DNA from: Acidobacteriota bacterium
GTDB lineage: Bacteria; Acidobacteriota; Thermoanaerobaculia; Multivoradales; Multivoraceae
Direction of reading: 5' to 3'
Length of the DNA: 42,135 nt
Assembly (NCBI GenBank): GCA_026708285.1
Contig: JAPOVF010000328.1
Span: 1 to 42,135, forward strand
Part shown: one piece after another, positions 33,355 through 36,354 of the stretch
Layout of the letters: each line of letters begins with the position of its first letter
How positions within the stretch are numbered: position 1 is the first letter of the stretch
Program-made: the position numbers and the translations under genes
Notes under the pieces: generated by a model
Told to the model about the DNA's origin: nothing
Database searches by the model: none
What the model saw: the letters and a program-made list of their open reading frames with translations, nothing else

Positions 33355-33825
33355 TCAGTCCTCCTTGCCTGGGGCGGGGTGCATGGCCGGCCGGAAGCGC
33401 AAGGCGACTCCGTTGTTGCAGTAGCGCAGTCCCGTAGGCGCGGGACCGTCGCTGAACACGTGTCCCTGATGTCCACCACAGCGTGTGCAGTGGTACTCGG
33501 TGCGCGGCACGAACAGCTTGAAGTCGCGTTGCGTTTCGAGCGCGCCGGGCATCGATTCGTAGAAGCTGGGCCAACCGGTGCCGCTTTCGTACTTCCACTC
33601 GGAGCGGAACAGTTCGGCGCCGCACCCGGCGCAGACGAAGACGCCGTCCCGATGTTCCCCGTTGAGGGGCGACGTGAAGGCCCGTTCCGTCCCTTCCCGG
33701 CGCAGGACGCGGAACTCGTCGTCAGCCAGTCTGGCGCGCCACTCGGATTCGGCCAGGTCGATCCGCTCGTTCTGCGGAACGCCTTCAGAGTCGGGTTCCG
33801 CAGGTCGCGGGTGGTCTTCGCTCAT
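33355..33825 (-). CDS. msrB: Peptide methionine-(R)-sulfoxide reductase
   Basis: Protein of 156 residues. It reduces methionine-R-sulfoxide in oxidised proteins. Zinc-binding pairs are Cys65/Cys68 (CAGC) and Cys113/Cys116 (CTRCGGHQGHVF). The catalytic Cys136 is in LRYCNNGVALRF, where most family members have YC(I/V)NS; here Ser is replaced by Gly. No signal peptide, so it is cytoplasmic. The N-terminal 20 residues look flexible. It is transcribed divergently from the selenoprotein gene (48 nt between starts) and is followed by the esterase. Confidence 0.95.
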   Translation of the reverse strand: MSEDHPRPAEPDSEGVPQNERIDLAESEWRARLADDEFRVLRREGTERAFTSPLNGEHRDGVFVCAGCGAELFRSEWKYESGTGWPSFYESMPGALETQRDFKLFVPRTEYHCTRCGGHQGHVFSDGPAPTGLRYCNNGVALRFRPAMHPAPGKED

Positions 33826-33873: not shown

Positions 33874-34770
33874 ATGGGAACACGAAGAGCGCCGGTCGAC
33901 CACATCGTCCGCACCCGGGAGCTGTATTCGAGCCTTGGACACGAACCCTACCGGTGGGTCCAGAACGTCGATCCGCCTTCGTGGGCCCGGCCGGCGAAGC
34001 CGCTTGCGGAATGTCGGATCGCCCTGGTGGCCTCCGGTGGCGTGTATCGGACGGGGCAGGTTGCCTTCCATCATCGGGACGACCTTTCCCTGCGCATCAT
34101 CGACACCCGCGTACCTGCGGCGGAACTGCGGACGAGCCACTTCGCCTACGACCAGACGGACGCCCGGATCGATCCGAACGTGGTCTTTCCCGTCGACACG
34201 CTGCGCGCTCTGGCGAGGGATGGCGTGATCGGGGAGTTGTCCCGCCGCGCGTACACCTTCATGGGTGGCATCTACTCGGCGCGTCGGGTACGCGAGACGC
34301 TGGCACCGGAAGTGAGCCGGCGACTGGCGGAAGACCAGGTCGATCTGGCGTTGCTGGTCCCCGTGTGACCGGTCTGTCATCAGTCCGTGGGACTGATAGC
34401 TCGCCGCATCGAGGCGGATGGCATTCCGACGCTCTCGATGACTTCGGCTTTCTCGATTACGAGATCGGTCAATCCTCCCCGCGCGGTGTTTCTCGACTAT
34501 CCCCTGGGTCACACGACGGGCAAGGCGCTGGACGCTAGCCTGCAGCGGGACATCATGATGGCGTCTCTCGCCGCCCTCCACGAGCTGGATACGCCGGGAG
34601 CGGTCAAGATGCTGCCGTTTCGTTGGTCGGATGACGACGACTGGAAGCGAGAAGTGATGGAGAGCGGCGATGCGAGGACAGGACGCTCGGCTGAGCCTGT
34701 CTACCAGTGCGAAGCCGACCGCAGGCTGGCGCAGGACGCAAGCGATTGCCCCACCTGCGTCTTCCTCTGA
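33874..34770 (+). CDS. Selenoprotein, glycine/betaine/sarcosine reductase B (GrdB)-like family
   Basis: Read as one protein of 298 residues with selenocysteine at position 165, encoded by TGA 34366-34368. Before the TGA the frame gives ...VDLALLVPV; after it PVCHQSVGLIARRIEADGIPT continues without a break to the TAA-less stop TGA at 34770. The UxxCH motif (Sec165, Cys168, His169) matches, from memory, the redox centre of the GrdB-like selenoproteins of the glycine/betaine/sarcosine/D-proline reductase family. Cys pairs at the C-terminus (DCPTCVFL) add a second thiol site. A SECIS-type hairpin follows the TGA. The protein is a stand-alone short form; no grdA, grdC or grdD is nearby, so an amino-acid reductase role is not shown. 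A conventional caller would give two fragments (33874-34368 and 34387-34770). Confidence 0.88.
34366..34368 (+). other. In-frame UGA read as selenocysteine
   Basis: The frame is intact on both sides. The codon sits in a conserved UxxCH context, where Cys-containing family members would have Cys, and is followed at the right distance by a hairpin. A sequencing error or ordinary stop is much less likely. Confidence 0.85.
34379..34397 (+). promoter_or_regulatory. Bacterial SECIS element (selenocysteine insertion hairpin)
   Basis: ATCAGTCC (34379-34386) pairs perfectly with GGACTGAT (34390-34397) around loop GTG. The loop starts 18 nt after the UGA, within the 16-37 nt window described for bacterial SECIS elements, and has the G/GU expected at its start for SelB. 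The hairpin lies inside coding sequence, so codon choice there must serve both functions. Confidence 0.82.
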
Positions 34771-35505: not shown

Positions 35506-36354
35506 ATGCCGCTCGAGCGACTCGACGACTGGGACGACTTCGTGGCGGAACTCTACCCCGAGCCGGCGGAGGCCGGCGGAAAGCGCCGCGAGGACTACCG
35601 GGACTTCGAACAGCCGCCGCGCGACACGGTGCGCGAGTTCTACCGGCTGAACCACCGCCACCAGACCTGGGACTTCGTTCAGGACAAGAAGGCGGAGTAC
35701 CTCACGCTCGACCGGGCTGAACTCCCGGCCTGGGAGGCGCTCGAGTTCCTGAACACCCTGGTGGACGACTCGGACCCGGATCTGGACCTCTCGCAGCTCG
35801 ACCACCTGTTACAGACGGCCGAGGCGATCCGGGCCGACGGACACCCGGACTGGTTCGTGCTCGCCGGACTGGTACACGACCTGGGCAAGGTGCTCTGCCT
35901 GTGGGGCGAGCCGCAGTGGGCGGTGGTCGGCGACACCTTCCCGGTCGGCTGCGCGTTCTCGGACCGGATCGTCTACCCGGAGCTGTTCGAGGGCAACCCT
36001 GACACCGCGAATGCCACGTACTCGACGCAGCTTGGGGTGTACGAAGCCGGCTGCGGGCTGGACCAGGTTCACCTGTCCTGGGGGCACGACGAGTACCTCT
36101 ACCAGGTGCTCAGCGACTACCTGCCGGAACCGGCCCTCTACATGATCCGCTACCACTCCTTCTACGCATGTCATCGCGAGGGCGCGTACCGGGAGTTGAT
36201 GAACGACCGTGACCGCGAGATGTTCGGCTGGGTGCGACTCTTCAACGGCTACGACCTGTACTCCAAGAGCGACCGTCCGCCGGATGCCGCCGAATTGCGG
36301 CCGTACTACCAGGGGCTGATCGACCGGTACCTGCCGGCGAAGCTGAGCCTGTAG
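35506..36354 (+). CDS. myo-Inositol oxygenase
   Basis: Protein of 282 residues, the length of animal MIOX. It converts myo-inositol and O2 to D-glucuronate with a di-iron centre. All six iron ligands of the mouse/human enzyme are matched: His100 ([11 protein letters not shown]), His124-Asp125 (LVHDLGK), His194 (SWGHDEYLY), His217 (IRYHSFY) and Asp250 ([10 protein letters not shown]). The substrate-contacting region [13 protein letters not shown] is also kept. Bacterial MIOX is comparatively uncommon. The downstream sugar ABC genes (39775 onward) could supply inositol, but they are 3.4 kb away with other genes between. TAGCGT lies 10 nt upstream of the ATG. Confidence 0.95.

Follow-up and report, generated by a model that had tools for sequence, protein, structure and literature searches.

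A PrdB-like protein with an in-frame UGA and a C-terminal CxxC tail in an Acidobacteriota genome lacking matches to the PrdA/GrdE family

The closest described systems are PrdB, the selenocysteine (Sec) subunit of clostridial D-proline reductase, and GrdB, the Sec subunit of glycine reductase; D-proline reductase is still listed with a UxxC motif, and the GrdB motif is given as UxxCxxC (PMC13188914). The first published UxxC selenoproteins of PrdB type cited here date from 2005, when 42 such genes were reported from the Sargasso Sea metagenome (PMC1088965), and 235 PrdB-like UxxC selenoproteins have been counted in the GOS metagenome (PMC2398784), so the family itself is not new. In these surveys, PrdB ranks among the more abundant marine selenoproteins and is glossed as proline reductase (PMC1088965, PMC2398784). 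The two sets come from marine and aquatic samples and share the family name and the UxxC motif with the gene described here; likened by description, they very likely include its subfamily. As far as the available text goes, both papers give counts and the motif, and the main text of PMC2398784 contains neither the word PrdA nor C-terminal, which leaves the missing partner and the C-terminal tail described below undiscussed there. We found no mention of either feature in the literature searched, which took in few subscription papers.

The gene lies in a window of 42,135 nucleotides (the whole stretch of DNA analysed) from an Acidobacteriota bacterium (Table 1). One frame of 298 sense codons runs through a single TGA at codon 165, in the context VPV-U-PVCHQSV, to the next stop, a TGA at codon 299. 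The initial annotation had recognized the frame, the TGA and its VPV-Sec-PVCH context but had counted 299 codons, the last of which is the stop; it had also stated that automated calling splits the gene in two, and without recoding (translation table 11) the frame does fall into two pieces.

Table 1. Positions in the window of the PrdB-like gene, its elements and its recognized neighbours.
Feature	Position	Strand	Basis
msrB (methionine sulfoxide reductase B, with SelR domain), transcribed divergently, starts 48 bp apart	33355..33825	-	Domain match
prdB-like selenoprotein gene (predicted), 298 sense codons and a stop, in-frame UGA as codon 165	33874..34770	+	Translation, profile match, homologues, substitution ratio
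Codon 165 (TGA), taken to encode selenocysteine; motif VPV-U-P-V-C-H-Q	34366..34368	+	Frame, homologues, conserved TGA
Cys168, UxxC partner of Sec165	34375..34377	+	Invariant in 94-row alignment
Bacterial SECIS-like hairpin, 8-bp stem AUCAGUCC/GGACUGAU, 3-nt loop GUG, loop 18 nt after UGA	34379..34397	+	Folding, published constraints
C-terminal CxxC tail, Cys292-P-T-Cys295, then VFL and stop	34747..34758	+	Sequence, homologue comparison
Myo-inositol oxygenase, next Pfam-recognized gene downstream	35506..36354	+	Domain match

Homologues of the joined reading extend across the UGA. Of 949 found, 120 were listed, 45 of them at least 240 residues long and 75 shorter than 240. The 45 listed long homologues (278–347 residues) showed 42–54% identity to the joined reading over 84–97% of the query, and because these full-length proteins align across the UGA, the joined frame is more than a chance arrangement. 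At the Sec165 site they carry Cys (40) or Thr (5), bearing out the expectation of Cys orthologues at this position, and a larger set of 69 non-Sec homologues of at least 270 residues has Cys in 63, Thr in 5 and Arg in 1. Several close full-length homologues (P0003, P0004, P0007, P0009 and P0011) have Thr at the Sec position, in the motif T-P-V-C-H-Q. All but one (P0062) of the 75 listed short homologues stop just before the Sec site, indicating that these 74 are the same gene cut at the UGA. In DNA, the codon equivalent to 165 was TGA in 80 of 80 loci, the best 80 of 325 GTDB contig loci that encode a relative. The gene, again with a single TGA, was present in all 20 of the 20 genomes from the same genus. 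The closest named relatives, at 83–91% identity, are Acidobacteriota.

Selection appears to act on both sides of the UGA. The window gene was compared with 24 near relatives, of which about 20 are distinct and the rest close duplicates. Its substitution ratio (omega) had a median of 0.15 before the UGA and 0.22 after it, the latter value indicating that the second half is translated in frame and is under purifying selection. Four residues beyond the UGA (W257, R271, P275 and D282) are invariant in the 94-row alignment, as is Cys168, which pairs with Sec165 in the UxxC motif, in agreement with the centre proposed initially. The initial annotation had considered that homologues might end at the UGA with nothing conserved after it; instead, the omega of 0.22 and the conserved residues carry the gene past that point.

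A candidate recoding signal follows the UGA. Folding of the 47 nt that start at the UGA gave -18.9 kcal/mol (z -2.2 versus dinucleotide shuffles); over 81 nt, z was only -1.0. Bacterial SECIS elements, as set out in PMC13188914, have a loop of 3–9 nt, a stem of 4–16 bp, a G in the first two loop positions, a distance of 16–37 nt from the UGA and a minimum free energy of -7.5 or lower; the window hairpin (GUG loop, 8 bp, 18 nt, -18.9 kcal/mol) falls within every one of these published limits (PMC13188914). We surveyed the hairpin in 83 loci, that is, the 102 with a Sec form minus 19 same-genus loci (L020–L038). Its loop started 17–18 nt past the UGA in 80 of the 83, and in 79 the first two loop bases were GU or GG. 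Set against synonymous recodings, the natural fold was the stabler one in 75 loci (mean z -1.3, window z -1.5; Wilcoxon p 9e-14, uncorrected for kinship).

The initial annotation had predicted a selenocysteine machinery elsewhere in the genome, and all of its parts were found. The selA (431 bits), selB (355 bits with its neighbour in frame) and selD (253 bits) matches each exceeded the curated cut-off. The tRNA-Sec (selC) scored 74.1 bits and was confirmed by ARAGORN with anticodon tca; a second match, at 51.9 bits, came from the same tRNA-Sec family search, which is unspecific (matches in 14 of 14 control genomes, above cut-off in 5). Thus, the genome is not one without selB and selC, which the initial annotation had named as evidence against its own reading. 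The window genome holds further genes with one in-frame TGA each, one SelW-like and three UGSC-like, one of the latter scoring above cut-off. These UGSC-like and SelW-like genes lie at C255:19820-20251, C164:2704-3123, C145:7597-8016 and C22:1689-1898.

Together these observations bear on whether the UGA could be an ordinary stop, so that the product would be a 164-residue N-terminal piece and the remainder a remnant or a separate gene. Automatic annotation agrees with such a stop, as do the 74 of 75 listed short matches that end at the site, but the frame and residues conserved after the UGA (omega 0.22; W257, R271, P275, D282), the intact Cys homologues, the SECIS hairpin, the full sel machinery and the other UGA selenoprotein genes of the same genome all argue against it, and we consider it highly improbable. 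On the evidence of sequence, we put the probability that the gene encodes a UGA-coded selenoprotein at about 0.97.

Profile searches placed the predicted protein in the GrdB/PrdB superfamily, with 54 bits against PF07355 (cut-off 22) and 71.8 bits against TIGR01918 (cut-off 65.45). Its score against TIGR04483 (PrdB) was 154.9 bits, below the equivalog cut-off of 300, with residues 33–252 matching positions 16–235 of the 238-position profile; against TIGR01917 (GrdB) it was 67.6 bits, below the cut-off of 602.2. Scores for NF040794 (69.6 bits versus 800) and NF040795 (66 bits versus 775) were likewise below cut-off, and no TIGR04483 match above the equivalog cut-off was found in any of the 60 genomes searched. 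Because the protein falls below both equivalog cut-offs, with PrdB the best equivalog by far, on profile scores it is a PrdB-like superfamily member that we file as neither PrdB nor GrdB. The nearest named family is PrdB (154.9 versus 67.6 bits for GrdB), which changes the initial label of GrdB-like.

Like PrdB, the predicted protein has its Sec in a UxxC motif, and the match to TIGR04483 covers 220 residues with no net gap; it is, however, about 17 residues longer than the profile N-terminally and 43 residues longer C-terminally, the latter including the CxxC tail. The window genome also differs from clostridia with PrdB in having no PrdA family, and the nearest named relatives are Acidobacteriota. 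The PF07355 domain is shared with GrdB, but the window motif, UPVCHQS, does not have the third Cys, and the GrdA and GrdE families are missing from the window genome.

We searched for PF09338 (PrdA/GrdE) in 40 gene-bearing genomes, namely the window genome and the genomes of 39 of the 80 loci, picked for spread. There was no match in 36 of the 40, the window genome (402 contigs, 93.6% complete) among them; the remaining four gave matches of 321–340 bits, which shows that the search works. PF04723 (GrdA) had no match in the window genome or in two same-genus genomes (G012 and G014) and, as a positive control, was present in the same four genomes that have PF09338. The Sec forms of these four genomes are tailless in three cases (L094, L103 and L116) and tail-bearing in one (L085). 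No grd or prd genes lie adjacent, as the initial annotation had said. That neither the PrdA/GrdE nor the GrdA family was found anywhere in the genome supports, rather than proves, its proposal of a probable redox protein that has a role of its own.

A catalytic subunit of a true D-proline reductase, with a PrdA partner that is too diverged or missing from the assembly, would also give a PrdB match spanning nearly the whole profile, as the 154.9-bit match does. That score is nevertheless only about half of the equivalog cut-off of 300, prd genes are absent nearby, and PF09338 was not found in the window genome by the very search that was positive in 4 of 40 genomes. Since 36 of the 40 genomes are without PF09338, assembly gaps are an unlikely cause of its absence, and the gloss of proline reductase is probably wrong for the window's branch. 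We regard a true D-proline reductase as improbable.

In thioredoxin reductase and other enzymes, the main redox centre is supplemented by another thiol pair at the extreme C-terminal end, and in Sec-containing thioredoxin reductases the Sec itself sits in this C-terminal tail. The window protein, which ends in ...DCPTCVFL, may be likened to them by analogy, differing in that its predicted Sec is in the core and its tail is a plain CxxC. The structure model is confident through the C-terminal end (mean pLDDT 95; last block 96). Neither this pair (Cys292/Cys295) nor the SECIS hairpin or the divergent msrB had figured in the initial annotation.

The tail was compared across 102 Sec forms read from loci L020–L129, excluding eight loci of other subfamilies (L041 and L043–L049). 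A CxxC lay within the last 45 residues in 95 of these 102, one of the other seven having a CxxxC, and in none of 69 Cys/Thr/Arg forms of at least 270 residues; the two sets differ in source, as Sec forms were read from DNA and non-Sec forms from a protein database that cuts Sec forms at the UGA, and the 171 forms do not each count as a separate event. In a 155-row tree built with the tail columns removed, the Sec/Cys/Thr/Arg states changed 5 times and the tail 5 times; in two contrasts on starred branches, the tail changed the same way in 1.6 (mean), the opposite way in 0 and showed no difference in 0.4 (p 0.5). Sec/non-Sec changed 13 times on a wider tree to which 48 Alphaproteobacterial rows were added and in which long branches meet. 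All 79 tail-bearing rows of the wider tree were Sec, and 46 of its 125 Sec rows were tailless; seven contrasts gave 1.4 the same way, 0 opposite and 5.6 without difference (p 1). A strict rule that equates Sec with a C-terminal CxxC, nearly perfect in the first set, was thereby ruled out by the tailless Alphaproteobacterial Sec forms, and the independent contrasts were too few for the pair tests to reach significance. Because 46 of 125 Sec rows are tailless, the tail is not a rule for Sec but a clade trait; from the sequences sampled, a fair statement is that it characterizes the window's clade and that the sampled Cys and Thr members within or beside this clade are tailless. That most close homologues carry this second redox motif at their end, and that it is confined to Sec forms, is new as far as the literature was searched.

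The divergent msrB adjoins the gene in 21 of 21 same-genus loci (L020–L040) and in 4 of 4 close named contigs (L050–L053), some of which are near-copies of same-genus loci. It adjoins none of the other 85 loci of L020–L129, among which the flanks of L041–L049 do not exceed about 1.5 kb and those of many more loci are cut short. The divergent msrB suggests a role in redox repair or detoxification within this genus. Myo-inositol oxygenase, too, was found as a neighbour solely within the genus and the named contigs close to it. A family-wide operon partner was sought by clustering the neighbours of 80 loci and the window, which gave clade-level neighbours only. Outside the genus, 5 of 76 loci have a DUF427 (PF04248) gene upstream on the same strand, no more than 25 bp away. 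A DUF2799 gene follows downstream in 7 loci, and the titles of the loci with either neighbour name Gammaproteobacteria or Pseudomonadales. The DUF427 genes (L060, L070, L076, L111 and L119) range from a 6-bp overlap with the Sec gene to a 21-bp gap before it. A second, remoter PrdB-like gene with one TGA is present in 10 of 20 same-genus genomes (G001–G003, G005–G007, G009, G013, G016 and G017), and pieces of it in G008 and G020; the window genome shows one PrdB-like gene only.

Relatives were also found in 35 of 289 Alphaproteobacterial genomes, with up to six PrdB-like matches per genome, most of them with one TGA. We re-read 52 distinct Alphaproteobacterial matches, two of which are GrdB-type (L130 and L131): the Sec site was TGA in 42, Cys in 9 and uncovered in 1. 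UAG as a Sec codon was considered for two matches and rejected, as both have Cys at the site and the TAG falls elsewhere or outside the re-read stretch. One subfamily with the motif U-P-L-D-H (L140, L141, L164, L165 and L166) keeps Sec and has Asp in place of the resolving Cys, so the UxxC pair is not required in all relatives. L142, a member of this subfamily, has Cys instead of Sec, and L164 and L166 each contain two different PrdB-like Sec genes a few kilobases apart. A longer PrdB-like subfamily (L155–L161 and L163) has the motif U/C-P-x-C-T-R and a C-terminal extension; L048, of the window's own family, has a gene with a similar motif.

The surroundings of the Alphaproteobacterial genes offer a possible view of substrates. 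Among 40 PrdB-like loci, several of them from one genome, 11 have a CoA-transferase family III gene (PF02515, one representative checked) no more than 400 bp away, which shares the strand in 10 of them (L164, L166, L170, L174, L176, L179, L182, L194, L195 and L201), and 2 have one further off; genes for acyl-CoA dehydrogenase, AMP-binding ligase and enoyl-CoA hydratase recur nearby. Around genes of the window's type outside the genus, enoyl-CoA hydratase occurs in 22 of 76 loci and CoA-transferase in 15 of 76. These neighbours and the presence of up to six PrdB-like matches per genome are consistent with substrates that are CoA-linked or carnitine/betaine-like, the non-clostridial PrdB-like family then being selenoreductases of acyl-CoA degradation operons with one substrate per paralogue. 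However, the CoA-transferase adjacency belongs to subfamilies other than the window's, and a search with a single representative of each family (E 1e-12) detected no such gene up to 10 kb either side of the window gene and its counterparts in four close loci, three of these five loci having one shorter flank. Near genes of the window's type elsewhere, 2 CoA-transferase and 5 enoyl-CoA hydratase genes lie within 400 bp, six of the seven on the opposite strand, and their presence may reflect no more than how common they are in the genomes concerned. We therefore think acyl-CoA-type substrates rather unlikely.

The reading that we favour for the window protein, at roughly even odds, is a self-contained selenol/dithiol reductase, with the chemistry at Sec165, Cys168 as the resolving residue, electron entry at Cys292/Cys295 and a thiol donor. 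By sequence criteria, the 298-residue protein is made by UGA recoding through the in-frame SECIS hairpin, SelB and tRNA-Sec. In the proposed enzyme, the substrate, oxidized or of C-heteroatom type, would be attacked by the Sec165 selenolate within a pocket of the protein itself, Cys168 would resolve the Sec165 intermediate as a selenenylsulfide, and the Cys292/Cys295 pair would take in electrons from thioredoxin or a similar thiol donor; neither the pyruvoyl partner PrdA nor GrdA would be needed.

More tentatively, and with the odds somewhat against it, the window's gene may represent a self-sufficient branch of the proline/glycine reductase superfamily in which one polypeptide replaces a multi-subunit machine, Sec165 carrying out the chemistry and the Sec-only CxxC tail bringing the electrons, and forming with its paralogues a large selenoreductase class outside Stickland fermentation. 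If so, members of this class would so far have been annotated as proline reductase or as truncated fragments; a genome may have as many as six of the paralogues, Asp stands in for the resolving Cys in some, and many adjoin a CoA-transferase gene. Gene callers that stop at the UGA hide Cys168 and the tail. The Sec-only CxxC tail offers a mechanism specific enough to be tested, and the CoA-transferase genes next to the paralogues are a first lead on substrates.
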